A stretch of 64,000 nt of DNA. It comes from Siphonodentalium dalli. Its lineage: Eukaryota; Mollusca; Scaphopoda; Gadilida; Siphonodentaliidae. The position numbers and the translations under genes were made by a program. Of the stretch, positions 26,849 to 64,000 are shown in pieces. Positions within the stretch are counted from its first letter, which is position 1; each line of letters opens with the position of its first letter. The notes under the pieces were generated by a model, which saw only the letters and a program-made list of their open reading frames with translations, did not search any database and was not told the origin of the DNA. The DNA lies in contig CP136062.1 in assembly GCA_032622095.1 (NCBI GenBank), forward strand, positions 53,027,349 through 53,091,348. The letters run 5' to 3'.

Positions 26849-27492
26849 TTATCTAACCGAGCGGAGCATCATCGTGGTGTGCATCATGGAGTTCCTGTCG
26901 AGGTTGTAGTACCAAACCATTCCGTCCCAACCTCCGGACGTTGTGTTTTGATACTCTCCGTTTAGGTTGGAATCAGAGCAACAGCGGTACCACCACGCCC
27001 CGTGCTCAGTGACGGGACATTGCGAGGTATATGAACATCCAGGTTGGGTGTGGTCGTTGTCGAAAGTGCTGAACGGCATCCCGTTATGAGCCACCAGAGA
27101 ATCGCCCGCGTCACCGTTGTACATTGACACGCGGATAGTGTAGTTGCTTGAAGCGCTATCGATACTGAAAGTGGAATATCGAGCATATTTATTCAGTCCA
27201 TTTGTTGTGGTCAGGCTGACGTACAACTCGGTAGTGCCAATTGAAGATAGTTGGTGAATGTTCTTCAGTCCGATCCAGTAGTTTCCAACTGTGGTACGAT
27301 CGCCAAATCCGTTCTCATACTCTGTCCAGTTCCTATAAAAATTGGTGCTTCCGTCTCTTCTTTGCTGCAAAATGGTCCATCCACCTCCGGCTGTTGTCAT
27401 GTCACAGACGACTTCGACTTCCGTGGTGGCAACTGGTGTGATTTTATACGAACCGTCGTTCAGAACGCCAGCATCCTTCAACTCTTTACAAT
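26849..27492 (-). CDS. Exon 4: fibrinogen C-terminal domain (FReD) and stop
   Basis: The acceptor TTTTTTGTTGCAG precedes 27492; the first two bases complete an Asp codon and the domain starts DCKELKDAGVLNDGSYKI. Visible hallmarks in order: CDMTTAGGGWTILQQRRDGS, NFYRNWTEYENGFGD, NYWIGLKNIHQLS, FSTFDNDHTQPGC, GAWWYRCCSDSNLNGEY, and WDGMVWYYNLDRNSMMHTTM ending LRSVR and TAA. The length (about 214 residues) is that of a complete domain. The FDND acidic pair is where family members bind calcium, and the WWYRCC...NLNG block borders the ligand pocket. No stop or frameshift is present, so the exon looks functional. There is no usable ATG at its start, which agrees with its being a terminal exon rather than a whole gene. 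Confidence 0.93.
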
Positions 27493-32218: not shown

Positions 32219-35200
32219 CTATATATATATATATATACGTGGAACATGTGGAACACACATAGAAAAAACGAATGTTGAAATTGTGAGGAGTGATATCTTT
32301 CCGCCATTTTCGAGCACATTAAGATGTAAGTGTCCGATTCTGTACATATATGTGTGAATACGATAAATACCCTTTACATGTCACTTGATACAATTGAGAC
32401 GGGCAGCCCAGTTGTGAATACCGGTACATTTGCGAGAATATTTCTTGTAATGATCACTTTGAGAATGGTACTGTTGACAAAATGTTAGCCATCGCCATAG
32501 CCTCCAATGTTAATGGGCAAAATATTTGATGCATCAAAGGAAGTTCATAGCTCGTTCTAGTTGACCGAGAGCTGTGTTCTATATCGTATAGTGTTTTGAT
32601 CAATTTAGCGACTCTACTTTAGCATCTTGCTAACTTTAGCACAATAATATACCAAAATATACCGAAATTGTACACACGCAACTTTAAAAAAAATTGTCAA
32701 CGGTTGGAACTTTCATTTCTGTCACAACATTCAGTTGGACATGTTATGCCACTTATCGTTTGAAAACAGCAATTAGTGCAGGGGGGGTCGGATAAAAATT
32801 TCAGGCACGTATGCTGATTTTTTCATTTCGACCCTTGTTGGGACCCACCCAACCCCGCTTCCAATTTGTTTTCCGTGTTCGGCAGTTTTTTCCCGACCAT
32901 TTTTGGACACCCACCCCCTTTTAACACTTAAACAGAGAGCTGCGGGGGGAAATTCACTGTAAACAGCTGTATATGAATTTCTGTGCATACTATTTGTCAT
33001 GGATGTTAACATTGACATGTAAATAGGAACGAGTCATTTTGGGGTCATTCGGCCAAAAACATGGCTTCCAGCGGCTATCTTGGATTTCAAAATTCAATCC
33101 ATTAGCATGGGCTACAGGCTATACTGTTTGTCTGATCATCATGAAATGTTTAATTTATGTTAATATTGACATTATAAGGTGTTTTAAGCCAAACTCATTG
33201 CAAAAACAATCAAAAAAGACTTGCAGGAAAACAGTAACATATTTTGTACATTTGGTCAAACTTGGTTCAACAGTTGGAAAGCTGAGGTACAAATGTCACG
33301 TCCCTGAAATTGGCCTGAATACACGCTTCGGTATATTGAACTAGAGTAATTCAAGCAATTCTTGCGACGGTTATGTTTTTCTTAAGCTGTTTATTGGCAA
33401 GTGGATAAACATATTTGTTCTCAGTGAGATTAGTTGCAGTTTATTTCTATTAACTTCTCCCGGGGGACTTTAACTTATCGAGCAATTCGTGTTGGTTACA
33501 ACTTGGTAGGATACAGTTATGTAGTATGCATGTTCCAAGTTCAGATTGTTAGGTGAAATGTAATAAATAGAGGATGTCCTGTCGTTTAATACGAGGATGG
33601 TGTCCACTGGGTGGGAGTATTTGACTCGGCTTCGCTTCGAGGACTATACCCACCCCATATATAGGATAGGATAGGATAGGATATTTTATTTCAATATACA
33701 CATATTAATGAATAATACATTTGACAAATATTATATTGTATATTCGATGGGGTGGCATAGTCAGACTAGACTGTCTTACTGCCATCCCCTTAAAGAAGAA
33801 AAGATGTTACGATAGGCGGTCAAGATTTCTTGTACAATGCACGGCTATATAATTATGTATCACACAGTGGTTGCATTTAACTGGATTATATACATGGAGG
33901 GTATACGTCTAGATAAATCGCTTATTGGTTACTCGATGGTTTGTCTCTTTCTTGTCAGTGGGATGTTCCTTGTAAGTCGAGTAGGAATATGCTGAGTGAG
34001 GTTGATGATTGCGATATTGGGGAAGTCACTTATTGACGAGCTACCACACAGTCGGGACATCTTTGATTGTTGCATTTAATTGTTGCAGCATATTTTTTAA
34101 TGCCATCGGCATGTATACGCCGTTTGAATGTGTGTCTGGATTGGTATGATGTAAATTCGTTATCTAAATTGTTCCATATAGTTGGAAAAGAATGGAATGG
34201 TAGTTGTTGGGACCAAGATGTTCTTGGTTTTTTTAAAAATAGTGGGTGCTTTTGCCGGGTTTCTGGTCCGGTTTTGCGTTTGGTAAACATGTCGGTGAAT
34301 GATTCTATTAAGCGCATATGATACCAATCATGCATGAAAACAGCCGCTTGTACTTTGTGGATGTCGTAGATTTTGAGTATATTTTCTTTTTTAAAGAGAG
34401 GTTCTGTGTGGCTTCTATATTTCTTATTACATAAAACTCGCATCGCGCGTTTTTGAAGCATGAAAACTTTTTTGACCGCAGGGACATGTCCCCATATTTG
34501 AATACCGTAAACGAGATGGCTTTGTATTAGAGCATAATATAATGTTTTAAGTGCGCTACCAGGAAAGAAGTGTTTAACTTTATTGATGTGGTATATGGCA
34601 TTCACCATTTTAGAACAAACAGAGGACACATGTTTTTTGAAAGTCAGGTTTTCATCTATATGGATTCCTAAGAATTTTGTGGAGGATTCGTGCTCAAGAT
34701 TTCCTACCTTGTTTAGTTCTGTATTATTTAAGTAAACCTTTATAAAGTTCCATTTGTCATCATTGTTCTCTGGGTGTATTAGCATATAGTTGCTTTTTTT
34801 AGTATTGATCACTAACTTATTGCTACAGCACCAAGCAAATATGTTGCGTAACTCATTATTCACATAACTTTCTACAAGAATGCCATCTTTTCCACCAGTT
34901 ACTAGAGTCGTATCGTCCGCGTATGATAAGATATCCATGGTTGTCGAATTTGACATATCGTTAACGTATATTAAGAAAATTATCGGTCCCAGAATAGATC
35001 CCTGGGGCACTCCACACGTCACTTCCGTTAATTTAGATTTAATACCATTGAGTTCAACATATTGCCTTCTATTTTGCAGATAGCTCTGAAACCATGAGTA
35101 TGCTGTGCCTCGTATACCATAGTGATCTAGTTTATGGAGTAAAATATCGTGATTTATCGTGTCAAATGCTTTTGAGAGGTTGAGAAATAGGGCTAAAGTG

Positions 35201-38200
35201 GAATCTCTTGTCATTTTGTCATTATTATATATCCTCGTAGTCATCTCCAACCTATGATCTATGTATATATAAGACCCATCTGAGTTTTATAACGTGTTCC
35301 TCGATTTCACCCCTATTGTTTCATCACTAGCAGCTTCTGTGACTTACAATATCATGGCAATTGACAGGGACCCACAGCATCGTCATATCAAACTAACAGG
35401 TCCAATCCACCATGGTTGTAGGTGACGCAACATAGTAAGTGGACGTCACATGTTTTGGTGAGTGGTACTCAACATTGAATATACTCACCGGTTCTATCGA
35501 ATGGAATGCAGAGGTATCCTGTATCACTGATGAAGCTCGGTGAACATATCGAGTTGGCGCCACACTGAGAGCTGATGCATGGGTGAGAGGGTTCCTGTAA
35601 GAATGAATGAGGTGAGCACCGAACAACGAACTGGTCCTCATATATAAACAGGGACGTTGCTACATATGAGTGTATTTGGGGTGTCTCACTCCCACCGTTG
35701 TTCAACATATTATTTGGAAATTCCATGCATGATGCAACATTATAGTTGGAATATTTACACCACAATTTGGTTGCTGCAATTGTGCTCATTATTTGATGAC
35801 CCAACCAGTCATCAGTGGGAATTGTTTTGTTTTTCCCCAACCGTCCGGGAGTTTCAGGTTGGAATTGTGTGAACTGAACGCGTGAGGTATCAGTTATAGA
35901 GTTACATCTATCAGGGTCCAACGTAATTTCTGAAACCTTTGAGTTTTGTCTGGTTAAAAGGTGGGGTCCAGTTGGAAAATTCCCAGGTTGATACCCCAAA
36001 CGGAGTCCCTCTAGCCTCGTCCCTGTATGCAAACTGTTCATTTCTTCGGCCCTTCACATGACGAATCAGGTAACATTGTATATTAATTTGTGCAACGGTT
36101 TTATCCAAAGGGACCCACATTGAATTTGGTATATTATGTATTTCATGCATTCAGATTAGGCCGAGGTCGACTGTAAGCCAGCTTACAGTTTAACGTCGTT
36201 GGTTACAATAATTTGGTTCATGGGCCAATGATATAGAACACGTATAATTTAGAAGACGGTAAAATTTAGAGTGCACTGTAATCGGCAATAAAAATACATA
36301 TCGCATGTGCTTTCTTATATATATAAATAGTAACACGCGCGCTGCCATTGTCTATACACAATTGGCGATTTCAGACGAATATGTTCCTAAGATCAATTTA
36401 AATGAATAGAGTCAACGTTGACATTGTGCAACTGAGTGGGTTATCATTTTACCATTAACTTTTTCTCAACAGAACACTTTTATCATGTGGAGACAATTTA
36501 AAATCCATCAAAAAAGATAGTGACGCTGACAAATATGTTCCAAATATGGCGGAATATGTCACAAATATGGCGGAATCGAGATCGCTAATACACTACTTAT
36601 AGAAGAGGTCTTGGTTGACATTTAATTTGTACCGTCTTGTAGTATACACGTATAAGTGTTATAGTACAGGGCCGAGGAGATCATCAGCGATATAAAAACC
36701 CACAATCTCACCTCCAATACGCGATGTATCACCACCGTTACTAAACGCACTAGACAACAACACAAAGACGCAGATTAATCCGCATAGGTTTGTCTAATAG
36801 ATAATAGATAATATGTAATAGTTATTAGCAAATCATAGAAAATATGATGTCTGCTACAAAAGTGGCATAAATAATTTTGATAATATAATACAATATGGAT
36901 GGGATTAAGAGACATTGTATGCGGTCTAATACTACAATATGAGTTACATGTAGTATGTACTTGTACATTGTATATATGGATAGCCATGCTTCTCATTCTT
37001 TAAGCGTCATTGGATTTAGAATGAGTATCGTTCTACCGAATCGAACAGGTTATATATAGTTACATACTGCCTTTGAAACTTTAACGGTTTTTGTTTTGGG
37101 TTCAGTAGTACTTTAAGACACTCTTTGGATAAGGTGTTCAAACTGTTAGTGCCTATGTTAAGTTTCTTAATCTGTTACTCAGATCGAATAACAATCGCTG
37201 TATAATCGTGAACACAGAGAGTCTTCTATTAGACAAAGGATTTTCTTTGCTCATCATATTTTTTGCAGCGCAAAATGAAATGCTCCTCATTTTCCATCAT
37301 ATTGCAGTGTATGCATTTTCTATATATTCTATCAAGTTTGGGCCTCTTTTATCTTCCAGTTTCAATAGCTAGTGTGTGAGCACTGACTCTGATAGTTGTT
37401 AAATATCTAACCAACGATGTTTGGATATTCTGAGTTAAATACTTTTGACATTCAAATTTATCATAACAATCTCGGGGCTAAAGATTAGATAGTGATTTGT
37501 ATTCAATGTGAGTAACGGTTGCCACGCAATGTTATACTTGTATTTCAAAATAAGTTTCCAGACTTACTCGTCTTTTTGTTTGTATTTATAGAAGTGATAC
37601 CCACCCAATATGTGAATTTGACTTGTGTACGACCAAATCTGTTTACTTGTAGTGTCGTAAACTATTTCTATATTTGGTTGTCACCTTCCCATTAACTCGT
37701 GATACTCATTCCGAAATAAAATCCGAACATCGCTTGGCACCTGTTACTCAGATTGAATAGCAATCGCTATGTAATCGTGAACACAGAGAGTCTTCTATTA
37801 GACAAACCGATTAATTTTATTTCGCTATTCGATAAAAGACAGCGCCTTGCTTTAACTTTAACGGCAACAGAAAGGTTCTTCACATGGGGCATATTCTACT
37901 CAATTATCTAGATTATTTTCAATTGAGTGAATTTATATCGATATACATCTCAGTGTACACGTACTACAATCTGGTATGACATACATACCGGGACGGTCTT
38001 ATCGGTATAACATACAGACCAGGACGGTCTTATCAGTAAAACATACATACCGGGACGGTCTTATCGGTATAACATACATACCGGGACGGTCTTATCGGTA
38101 TAACATACAGACCAGGACGGTCTTATCAGTAAAACATACATACCAGGACGGTATTATCGGTAAAACATACATACCAGGACGGTATTATCGGTAAAACATA

Positions 38201-38976
38201 CATACCGGGACGGTCTTATCGGTATAACATACATACCGGGACGGTCTTATCGGTATAACATACAGACCAGGACGGTCTTATCAGTAAAACATACATACCA
38301 GGACGGTATTATCGGTAAAACATACATACCAGGACGGTATTATCGGTAAAACATACATACCAGGACAGTATTATCGGTAAAACATACAGACCAGGACGGT
38401 ATTATCGGTAAAACATACATACCAGGACGGTCTTATCGGTATAACATACAGACCAGGACGGTCTTATCAGTAAAACATACATACCAGGACGGTATTATCG
38501 GTAAAACATACATACCAGGACAGTATTATCGGTAAAACATACAGACCAGGACGGTATTATCGGTAAAACATACATACCAGGACGGTCTTATCGGTATAAC
38601 ATACAGACCAGGACGGTATTATCGGTAAAACATACATACCAGGACGGTATTATCGGTAAAACATACATACCAGGACGGTTTTATTGGCGTGTCCCCATGC
38701 ATTGTTGGTAGGGATTGCACTGCTTCCGTTTCTCAGGAAATGGCAGATATTGTTGGTAGTATTGTAGGCAAACTCTTGACATCCAAGTGTGTAATCACAC
38801 GCCCTCTGACACCGCATCATATTCAGACTCCTCATGGTATGCGTGATGGTAAGTGATGGATCTGGCAGTACGGTCATATCGGGTGGCTGGCATTGGTCGG
38901 CGATCGCATACATACAGAGGGTCGAGAATGCAGCAAACATCACCCCGGCACGCCACGTGACATCGATCCAAGTCAT
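26849..38976 (-). CDS. Secreted PAN-EGF-fibrinogen-domain protein (spliced gene, 4 coding exons)
   Basis: The assembled CDS is 38671-38976, 35489-35594, 31651-31704, 26849-27492 (1110 nt, 369 aa plus stop). All junctions have GT/AG borders and compatible phases (0, 1, 1), with split codons G|AA (Glu138) and G|AT (Asp156). Domain order: signal peptide (about 1-26), PAN/Apple-like module (about 28-98), short EGF-like module (about 103-135), Ser/Thr/Pro linker (138-155), fibrinogen C-terminal domain (156-369). Fibrinogen-related proteins of invertebrates are mostly secreted carbohydrate- or pathogen-binding lectins, and PAN and EGF modules mediate protein or glycan contacts; an extracellular recognition role is therefore inferred, not shown. 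Introns contain a minisatellite, a LINE and LINE relics. The start is the first in-frame ATG; an in-frame stop lies upstream near 39058. An upstream untranslated exon cannot be excluded. Confidence 0.8.
27493..30689. other. Intron 3 of the fibrinogen-domain gene, part without other features
   Basis: No coding similarity is visible. Poly(C) runs occur near 29066 and 30640. The plus-strand frame at 29468-29767 ends with a stop next to AATAAA, but nothing in it is recognisable. Confidence 0.45.
30690..31190. repeat. Degenerate minisatellite in intron 3
   Basis: The phrase ATGGGACCATATTTTAATTA followed by ACCCTC recurs at roughly 28-45 bp spacing, more than a dozen times, with many substitutions and length changes. 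ORF 30832-31038 is a repeat translation. Confidence 0.8.
31331..31480 (+). other. Exon-like segment on the opposite strand, unidentified
   Basis: A 150-bp stretch open for exactly 50 codons between a pyrimidine-rich stretch ending TTTTACAG and a donor ATG|GTGAGT, phase 0 at both borders. It encodes a hydrophobic run (CVAAFLGLVLYYATKH) followed by a polar tail (HHTYEDPSHRAKTISYM). It lies inside intron 3 of the minus-strand gene. I do not recognise the protein, and no partner exon was found. It could be a nested gene's exon, an exonised transposon fragment, or chance. Confidence 0.25.
31651..31704 (-). CDS. Exon 3: Ser/Thr/Pro linker
   Basis: 54 nt, phase 1 on both sides, with acceptor CTCCCTCTTCCTTACACCATCAG (shown from the minus strand, upstream of 31704) and donor GCAG|GTATGT at 31651. 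It encodes SETTTTIPTTTPTPIYA plus the two split codons. Such mucin-like linkers between an N-terminal module and a fibrinogen domain are common and could be O-glycosylated. It is too short to find by ORF length; it was found by following the phase-1 requirement of exons 2 and 4. Confidence 0.75.
32189..32236. repeat. TA microsatellite
   Basis: Nearly pure (AT)n with a few interruptions, inside intron 2. Confidence 0.9.
33660..35255 (-). mobile_element. 5'-truncated LINE with reverse transcriptase, catalytic Asp lost
   Basis: The minus-strand ORF 35250-34030 (406 codons, uninterrupted) begins inside the reverse transcriptase. Motif A reads LFLNLSKAFDTINHD, then GVPQGSILGPIIFLIYVND, then the catalytic box SYADDTTL, the thumb (KFLGIHIDENLTFKKHV), and the C-terminal part ending near WNNLDNEFTSYQSRHTFKRR. 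The first Asp of motif A in this family ('LDLSKAFD') is Asn here (codon AAC, one change from GAC). The 3' end has AATAAA (minus strand, next to 33685-33692) and a short TCCTA tandem tail (33660-33684), typical of the CR1/Daphne-like part of the jockey superfamily. The endonuclease and ORF1 are missing, so it was dead on arrival. It lies in intron 2 in the same orientation as the host gene. Confidence 0.92.
35489..35594 (-). CDS. Exon 2: four-cysteine EGF-like module
   Basis: 106 nt between acceptor TTCATTCTTACAG (exon begins at 35594) and donor CCG|GTGAGT (exon ends at 35489). It reads EPSHPCISSQCGANSIC, SPSFISDTGYLC and IPFDRTG in the frame that continues phase 0 from exon 1 and leaves phase 1. 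Spacing fits cysteines 1-4 of an EGF-like domain, but the expected fifth and sixth cysteines are absent. The module is therefore either a shortened EGF-like fold with two disulfides or a diverged relative. The longer open frame extending upstream to 36041 is not needed to join the exons and shows no domain. Confidence 0.75.
35595..36170 (-). other. Open, unidentified stretch upstream of exon 2
   Basis: Two overlapping minus-strand frames (36041-35595 and 36150-35911) are open for long distances and look like one older coding sequence with a frameshift near 35980. I recognise no domain. It is not needed to join exons 1 and 2 of the fibrinogen-domain gene. A decayed mobile-element ORF is likely but unproven. 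Confidence 0.3.
37172..37806. repeat. 66-bp direct repeat pair at the LINE 3' end
   Basis: 37172-37237 and 37741-37806 share CTGTTACTCAGAT(C/T)GAATA, CAATCGCT and GTGAACACAGAGAGTCTTCT, running to TTAGACAAA, with a few substitutions. The first copy overlaps the end of the decayed LINE; the second is the 3' end alone, so two LINE ends or one local duplication are possible. Confidence 0.75.
37195..37565 (-). pseudogene. Decayed LINE C-terminal fragment
   Basis: One minus-strand frame from about 37560 to 37228 reads LETYFEIQV, stop, HCVATVTHIEYKSLSNL, stop, PRDCYDKFECQKYLTQ ... TIRVSAHTLAIETGR, stop, KRPKLDRIYRKCIHCN ... EEHFILRCKKYDEQRKSF. The 'RiSaH.LaIEtGR' and 'C.hC...EeHFilrCkkY' blocks are those at the end of CR1/jockey-type LINE ORF2. 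Three in-frame stops, otherwise the frame is kept. The 3' flank is duplicated at 37741-37806. Confidence 0.75.
37979..38683. repeat. 31-bp minisatellite carrying the exon-1 splice donor
   Basis: 22 complete 31-bp units (37979-38660) plus a 23rd partial unit that runs into exon 1. The plus-strand unit starts ACATACATACCAGGACGGTA and ends TTATCGGTAAA. Reading the minus strand, each unit contains ACCGTCCTG|GTATGTATG, the same sequence as the exon-1/intron-1 junction. Sixteen units (including the real junction) keep GTATGT; seven read GTCTGT. Variants (CAGG/CGGG, GGTA/GGTC, GTAAA/GTATA) recur in blocks, suggesting higher-order duplication by unequal exchange. The ORF at 37976-38194 is an artefact. 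Confidence 0.95.
38671..38976 (-). CDS. Exon 1: signal peptide and PAN/Apple-like module
   Basis: 102 codons from ATG at 38976-38974 to a donor CTG|GTATGT at 38671/38670. The N-terminus MTWIDVTWRAGVMFAAFSTL continues into CMYAIA|DQC, a good signal peptide with likely cleavage after AIA. Five cysteines follow with PAN-type spacing: Cys at the start of the module, then CQRACDYTLGC, an EFAY motif and CHFL. The exon ends with AWGHANKTVL in phase 0. Upstream GGCATGA gives G at -3; a second in-frame ATG (VMFAAF) is a weaker alternative start. The last 9-10 exon bases (ACCGTCCTG) are part of the tandem repeat that continues into the intron. Confidence 0.78.
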
Positions 38977-42913: not shown

Positions 42914-43071
42914 CGGGCTGATACGGACCCTGACTCTTACGGACCCTGGCTGATACGGACCCTGGCTTTTACGGACCTCCGGCTCATACGGACCCTGGCT
43001 TATACGGACCCCGGCTTTTACGGACCCTGGCTTTTACGGACATCCGGCTCATACGGACCTCAATTAAAATT
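42914..43071. repeat. 16-17-bp minisatellite, forward array
   Basis: Nine copies of TACGGACCCTGGCTTT-like units, with CTCCGGCTCA variants at regular places. It is matched by an inverted array at 43563-43696. Confidence 0.9.
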
Positions 43072-43562: not shown

Positions 43563-43696
43563 GAGGTCCATATGAGCCGGAGCTTCGTAAAAGCCAGGGT
43601 CCGTAACAGCCGGGGTCCGTATAAGCCAGGGTCCGTATGAGCCGTATGTCCGTAAAAGCCAGGGTCCGTAAGAGCCAGGGTCCGTATCAGCCGTAT
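43563..43696. repeat. 16-17-bp minisatellite, inverted array
   Basis: About eight units of GTCCGTAAAAGCCAGG-like sequence, the reverse complement of the array at 42914-43071, including the CCGTAT/GCCGGA variants. Short flanks (TTTAATTTAATTTGAATGAG against CTCAATTAAAATTAAATTAA) are also complementary. Confidence 0.9.
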
Positions 43697-62622: not shown

Positions 62623-62790
62623 TGCTACATCTGTCACCAGAGTTTAACGATGAAAGTGGAAGTTGATAAAAGTTATCGGTACCTAAAGTGAACTGATTAT
62701 AAAATGTTACAAATCTCTCTTAATTACTCTCATGATGTTCATATTTCAAAATGTTCAATACTATGGGAGGCCAAATTCACATTTAATAAT

Positions 62791-62931
62791 TAATTGTGCT
62801 TAAGCGCAATCAATTGTGCTTAAGCGCAAATAATTATGCTTAAGCGCAATCAATTGCGCTTAAGCGCAATCAATTTCGCTTAAACGCAATCAATTGCGCT
62901 TAAGCGTAATTATTTGCGCTTAAGCGCAATT
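62791..62931. repeat. Tandem array of palindromic TTAAGCGC motif, left
   Basis: Seven units of 19-20 bp, each centred on GCGCTTAAGCGC or a one-base variant (GTGCTTAAGCGC, ATGCTTAAGCGC, GCGCTTAAGCGT) with AATCAATT spacers. Confidence 0.9.
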
Positions 62932-63920: not shown

Positions 63921-64000
63921 CACAATTATGCTTAAGCGCAATTGATTTGCGCTTAAGCGCAATTAATTGTGCTTAAGCGTAATTAATTACGCTTAAGCGT
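63921..64000. repeat. Tandem array of palindromic TTAAGCGC motif, right (runs off window)
   Basis: At least four units of the same 19-20-bp motif as 62791-62931. The spacer AATTGATTTG is in the opposite sense to most of the left array, so the two arrays may be inverted ends of one element of about 1.2 kb or more. Confidence 0.85.

Follow-up and report, generated by a model that had tools for sequence, protein, structure and literature searches.

Repetition of an exon-intron junction by a minisatellite in a PAN-EGF-fibrinogen-domain gene of the scaphopod Siphonodentalium dalli

Introduction

When the first intron of a gene opens with many copies of the gene's own 5′ splice site, the question arises of whether these copies take part in splicing or are merely carried along as intron sequence. 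Such an arrangement is found in a 64,000-nt stretch of the Siphonodentalium dalli genome (assembly GCA_032622095.1, contig CP136062.1, positions 53,027,349 to 53,091,348 of the forward strand; hereafter the window), where a 31-bp minisatellite lies across the exon-1/intron-1 junction of a three-exon, minus-strand PAN-EGF-fibrinogen-domain gene. The initial annotation had proposed that the choice between donors could tune the output of the gene and that changes in copy number could alter it, with a redundant donor and a harmless array as the alternative. Comparison of the array with those of related genes fits the alternative best. The array is probably a passive exon-intron-boundary minisatellite, in which the first donor is mainly used and the rest is tolerated.

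A Minisatellite across the Exon 1-Intron 1 Junction

Tandem Repeats Finder (TRF) places the minisatellite at 37979..38684 (minus strand), with a period of 31, 22.8 copies, 92% matches and a score of 1153. The array includes 13 nt of exon 1 and 692 nt of intron 1, and hence crosses the exon-intron boundary instead of starting exactly at the junction, as had been annotated. Cut in register from the junction, it yields 23 units with a donor, in agreement with the idea that the minisatellite multiplies the gene's own splice site. GT is present in 23/23 units, GTATGT in 16/23, the count originally given, and GTCTGT in 7/23. The full CTG|GTATGT is limited to 11/23 units, the GTATGT being preceded by CCG (CCG|GTATGT) in 5. 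When the 31-mers downstream were compared with the one at the junction, 22 agreed in at least 21 of 31 positions, against 0.0 on average when the sequence was shuffled 20 times by mononucleotides, so the repetition is not due to chance.

In junction register, the minus-strand unit is approximately (C/T)GATAA(G/T)AC(C/T)GTCC(T/C)G|GT(A/C)TGTATGTT(T/A)TAC, and its coding first copy is CAATAAAACCGTCCTG. The CGATAAGACCGTCCTG part of the unit is identical to the exon end of the paralog L015 (GCC GAT AAG ACC GTC CTG) and nearly so to those of L022 and L026, so that the unit takes in about 16 bases of the exon and 15 of the intron, and not the last ~9 exon bases plus the donor. The array also has a higher-order organization. 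With the first and last units omitted, units five apart are identical in 10/16 comparisons, whereas every other lag between 1 and 12 gives 0-3 identities, and this five-unit (155 bp) pattern probably arose by block duplication.

The Gene Model and the Position of the True Donor

Exon 1 (38671..38976, minus strand) contains the start codon, a putative signal peptide, recognized by eye, and a PAN domain (PAN_1, E=2.5e-05, 24.5 bits, with a Pfam cut-off of 21.4), and ends in phase 0 after 102 codons. The true 5′ splice site is predicted to be CTG|GTATGT (38665..38673, minus strand), with the exon end at 38671 and the GT at 38670-38669. Exon 2 (35489..35594, minus strand, 106 nt) was found by comparing the open frames of the window with those of four paralogous loci. 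It is EGF-like by eye, has a frame conserved among the paralogs, is entered in phase 0 and left in phase 1 (ttcttacag|GAACCC...GAACCG|GTGAGT), and has 87 matches in the genome at E≤0.01. Exon 3 (26849..27492, minus strand) is entered in phase 1 (tgttgcag|ATTGT) and encodes a fibrinogen-related domain (Fibrinogen_C, E=1.3e-57) and the stop codon. When the exons are joined, as the model proposes, the phases agree (0/0, then 1/1) and produce an open frame of 352 codons, stop included, in which the only stop is terminal. The two Pfam domains, PAN and Fibrinogen_C, are in this way found within one phase-coherent gene model.

The position of the donor was further compared among paralogs in the 2,226,750,531 bases (9 contigs, C1-C9) of a single assembly. 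The main sample consists of 45 of the top 47 among at least 127 PAN matches, omitting C7:185838845, which has an internal stop, and C2:54872971, the score of which was tied with that of an included match; some of the sampled exons are near-identical duplicates (L013/L014 and L043/L045). A more divergent sample consists of 40 of the remaining 80 matches, namely the best-scoring ones that reach query residue 98 or beyond, five shorter matches being skipped. GT is found at the same codon boundary in 45/45 exons of the main sample, in some of them within GTAAGT or GTGAGT, and in 39/40 of the divergent ones; the miss, L055, was cut 10 nt off and has a GT visible 10 nt upstream. Because the phases fit and the place of the donor is conserved in paralogs, exon 1 very probably ends at 38671, where it had been annotated.

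A donor four bases further on (GTAT|GTATGT), from which exon 1 could be joined in phase to the fibrinogen exon without an exon between them, was also considered. It was rejected because the phase-0 entry and phase-1 exit of exon 2 fit the first donor, and because paralogs in which the first donor reads GTAAGT or GTGAGT have no GTATGT four bases later.

Both introns contain other elements. In intron 1, a sequence of about 64 bp was seen by eye to recur imperfectly in direct orientation (37174-37237 and 37743-37806), and intron 2 carries on the same strand a reverse-transcriptase reading frame (34030-35286; RVT_1, E=1.3e-24).

Decoy Donors and the Predicted Effect of Their Use

The first decoy donor (38634..38642, minus strand) lies 31 nt into the intron and shares with the true donor both its bases, CTG|GTATGT, and its computed energy of duplex formation with U1 (-7.2 kcal/mol). 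Translation reproduces the consequence originally described, in which splicing at this decoy would add 31 nt, shift the frame and read L-VCMFYR before a stop. Whether exon 1 were lengthened by 31 nt, by 62 nt or by retention of the intron, translation would pass through VCMFYR to the in-frame TAA at 38650..38652 (minus strand) and to a product of 108 residues. Since this TAA sits in the first extra unit, every later decoy would meet the same stop. A crude calculation of U1 pairing for the 23 units gave -7.2 kcal/mol for 11 units, -7.4 for 5 and -5.8 for those with GTCTGT, 7 in number.

These features would suit a mechanism in which a share of the transcripts is spliced at decoys, acquires the early stop and is removed by nonsense-mediated decay, so that the amount of full-length lectin made would depend on copy number. 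Among the 22 further units, 15 have GTATGT, in line with the some 15 decoys first annotated, and computed U1 pairing is at least equal to that of the true donor in 15/22; the use of any of them would yield one and the same early stop. The evidence on the other side comes from the paralogs and from the units themselves, and is given below.

Junction Repeats in Related Genes

Extra copies of a junction were scored at ≥21/31 identity within 1.4 kb downstream (5 kb for L002 and L010). At least one copy of the exon's own junction was found in 8/45 paralogous exons, six of them, that of the window gene (31 bp, 23 copies) included, among the 16 sampled exons of chromosome 2 (C2), while mononucleotide shuffles gave a mean of 0 copies for all exons but one (0.05). 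None of the 40 more divergent paralogs has a junction copy inside 700 bp downstream. As to whether ordinary intron minisatellites might overlap a junction by chance, TRF reports 28 repeats near the 45 paralog junctions, some of them overlapping, of which three cross the junction (L001, L010 and L022).

The five other C2 paralogs differ widely. A 31-bp unit is repeated 21 times at C2:44.785 Mb and 6 times at C2:44.870 Mb, and a 39-bp unit is present in about 102 copies at C2:44,992,717-44,996,711 (L009-L012), where it occupies about 4 kb of an intron 1 of about 5 kb. At C2:53.975 Mb a remnant of about 1.7 units barely reaches the threshold, and another remnant, at C2:53.559 Mb, follows some 740 bp of intervening sequence, part of which is a minisatellite with a unit of its own, of 62 bp. 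Copy number across paralogs extends from ~1.7 to ~102, as compared between loci of one assembly. An EGF-like exon is found downstream in all six array-bearing C2 genes. The expansion to which these lectin-like genes belong is very large, with at least 127 PAN-exon and at least 150 fibrinogen-domain matches, a few of them with internal stops.

At C2:44.783-44.785 Mb (L002/L008), a DNA transposon of 2,156 bp, with perfect 29-bp terminal inverted repeats, a CCTGG target duplication and a longest frame of 97 residues, interrupts the second unit. When its flanks are joined, a head-to-tail series is restored, with donor spacings of 34 and 30 bp, hence the array, now mostly about 2.2 kb from the exon, formerly began at the exon.

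The remaining two exons with a junction copy are on C9. L046 (52.11 Mb) and L047 (52.50 Mb) each have one dispersed duplicate of their junction, 428 and 559 bp downstream, respectively, and this duplication is apparently separate from the C2 arrays. By eye, the duplicate covers roughly 40 bases on each side of the junction, exonic and intronic, and in L047 a 38-bp minisatellite of 5.3 copies lies in between.

A dispersed repeat or transposon as the source of the unit was rejected, given that 14/14 DNA matches are beside a PAN exon or within about 4 kb of one (8 candidates were scored; the search skips common words and so does not prove absence elsewhere). Long tandem arrays are error-prone in assemblies, and here a single assembly is concerned, such that copy number might be inflated or collapsed. 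It is nevertheless hardly conceivable that the arrays are an assembly artefact, as the five other loci have differing units, lengths and inserts, beyond what one error creates.

The 102-Copy Paralog

In the paralog with about 102 copies (C2:44,992,700-44,996,990), the 39-bp unit corresponds to 13 codons, the first ten spacings are all 39 bp, and the frame, counted from the start codon, stays open over 276 residues, through ten extra units, 8/10 of which keep GTATGT. Donor choice in this gene could insert 13-residue VCTVLCFTDNIIL-like units between the PAN and EGF parts, leading to length variants of a secreted lectin-like protein. Such an in-frame ladder is very unlikely, because a stop-free 39-bp unit is estimated to have about even odds of occurring by chance and the lack of odd spacings among the first ten units is unremarkable (0/10 vs 16/92), giving no sign of selection for an open frame there. 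Moreover, a hydrophobic unit with two cysteines seems unlike a secreted linker, and exon 3 of this gene was not located.

A broader version would regard junction minisatellites in general as splice-donor ladders. The later rungs would silence the window gene through its fixed stop and the first ten rungs would add 13 residues each in the 102-copy paralog, so that array changes would lower the output of one gene and raise the protein length of the other. This combination is given just as small a chance.

History of the Arrays and Selection on Their Units

In a tree of 45 exons, the array-bearing exons form the pairs L001/L002 (support 95/92), L010/L021 (100/91) and L015/L022 (99/97). Variants of the distal copies are held in common, CCCG by the window gene, L015 and L022, and TATGTTTGCAGTAT by L021 and the 102-copy gene (the L010/L021 pair), which suggests one old duplication of the junction followed by separate expansions. 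This succession appears to be the simplest account of the sequences. Several observations speak against it. The 20-exon group that encloses the array-bearers is weakly supported (83/37), L020, the sister of L010/L021, has no array though nested among array-bearers, and the last unit at C2:44.785 Mb, the sister of the window gene, reads CCTG and not CCCG. These features still allow two or three origins of the arrays, a possible course of events. The 20-exon group also contains array-free exons from C2, C7 and C8.

The donor bases have not been singled out within the arrays. By plain comparison of values, identity to the consensus at positions -3 to +6, set against the rest of the unit, is 0.942/0.945 in the window (23 units), 0.905/0.881 in the 44.785 array (21 units) and 0.978/0.940 in the 44.996 array (103 units). 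As the donor core is about as well conserved as the rest of the unit, decoy donors do not appear to be purged. A genome-wide count of the donor word AGGTAAGT occurring three times at minisatellite spacing revealed no enrichment, with 1181+833 = 2014 occurrences vs 1496+703 = 2199 when the word was read backwards; the part of the matches listed is dominated by large arrays, in which matches overlap.

The ratio of nonsynonymous to synonymous substitution (dN/dS) in exon 1 is 0.50, 0.30 and 0.72 in the three array-bearing pairs, and 0.25-1.11 in ten of the 11 array-free pairs, the last being undefined. L002 paired with the array-free L026 gives 0.49.

Passive Array or Donor Choice

Taken together, the sequences are best accounted for by an array that would have arisen and persisted passively. 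The junction of exon 1 would once have been duplicated in an ancestor of the C2 paralogs, after which unequal exchange or slippage would have expanded, contracted and homogenised the arrays. The spliceosome would mainly pick the first donor, the sole one predicted to give the full protein, and the array would be tolerated as intron sequence. Rare splicing at later donors would result in early-stop transcripts, which may be lost or encode a 108-residue, PAN-only product. This passive reading is favoured because related genes differ widely in copy number, in distance to the exon and in the effect on the frame, and because the minisatellites of lancelets termed mirages reportedly leave regular splicing undisturbed (PMC3087553; PMC3902484).

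The same observations make it unlikely that donor choice tunes the output of the window gene, or that copy number alters it, as was originally proposed. Paralog copy number varies widely (~1.7, 6, 21, 23 and 102), the transposon has shifted most of the array of one paralog off its exon, and the stop mechanism is inapplicable in the 102-copy paralog, which is in frame for ten units. In addition, the donor bases of the window array are as variable as the rest of the unit, and the reportedly undisturbed splicing in lancelets (PMC3087553) speaks against such a regulation.

Nevertheless, some findings weigh against a passive array. In the computed pairing, 16/23 units, counting that of the true donor itself, bind U1 as well as the true donor or a little better, and no local sequence feature marks the first donor as superior to the first decoy, which has the same bases. 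Competition experiments often favour the intron-proximal site among equal donors, which makes real use of decoys plausible. The dN/dS of 1.04 between the window gene and L026 suggests that the former may be weakly constrained. Finally, human IFI6 (6-16), which has a minisatellite with multiple splice donors (Turri 1995, as cited in PMC2572611 and PMC4526556), is said to splice at two of the repeat units further downstream (PMC4526556), a precedent that also favours donor choice.

Comparison with Known Systems

Boundary-spanning tandem repeats are known already from lancelets and from human segmental-duplication paralogs (PMC2812944), and multiple donors from IFI6; in S. dalli they form a long copy-number series in one lectin-like family. 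In amphioxus, mirages are described in Adh3, globin and TnC, with similar repeats in PGBD5 (PMC3087553, PMC3902484). The 10-72 bp range of the Adh3 units covers the 31 and 39 bp observed here. However, mirages were described in cephalochordates, whereas in S. dalli several paralogs repeat the same junction, in up to ~102 units. Undisturbed splicing is reported for the mirages.

The human segmental-duplication repeats resemble the present arrays in their average unit of ~30 bp, their recently duplicated paralogs, their variable number and their occasional position at exon-intron boundaries, but they average ~4 copies, as opposed to up to ~102, and RNA evidence shows that some of them gave new introns or were retained (PMC2812944). 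In IFI6, as in the window gene, a minisatellite supplies several donors, with the difference that actual use is stated for two downstream units of IFI6, whereas the donors here are predicted. The Rlec lectins of prawns are likewise an expanded family with 30/33-bp repeats that vary between members, but these repeats are translated within exon 2 (PMC7536079), while those of S. dalli are at the donor and intronic on the gene model. Molluscan fibrinogen-domain proteins with PAN domains have been mentioned (PMC7588048). No report of junction repeats in the PAN/EGF/fibrinogen family was found among the literature matches listed, most subscription journals being outside the search.

The gain of introns or exons was proposed for both lancelet mirages (PMC3087553) and human paralog repeats (PMC2812944). 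The S. dalli arrays could likewise serve as raw material if a cryptic acceptor and donor of the unit were recruited to make a micro-exon or a shifted intron, and some units do have an AG upstream of the donor (GATAAG|ACCGTCCTG|GT). By eye, the unit lacks an acceptor-like pyrimidine tract, and the exon end is at a constant place in 45 paralogs, which leaves this role a shade less probable still than the in-frame ladder.

If the array is passive, an apparently intact gene tolerates many near-perfect donor copies right behind the real one, and the paralogs (1-2, 6, 21, 23 and ~102 copies) offer a natural series for studying how the spliceosome chooses when several 5′ splice sites are identical. 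Should the decoys be used, a lectin-like family would be under repeat-length control. Such arrays may also prompt gene predictors to place exon ends wrongly.

Other Repeats in the Window

Two further groups of tandem repeats were found with TRF. Two arrays of one 16-bp unit, TACGGACCCTGGCTTT and its complement (the latter recognized by eye), occupy 42916-43059 and 43565-43696, in opposite orientation and about 500 bp apart. Towards the end of the window, 20-bp tandem arrays at 62788-62930 and 63930-63999 have units that, by eye, contain self-complementary words such as GCTTAAGC.
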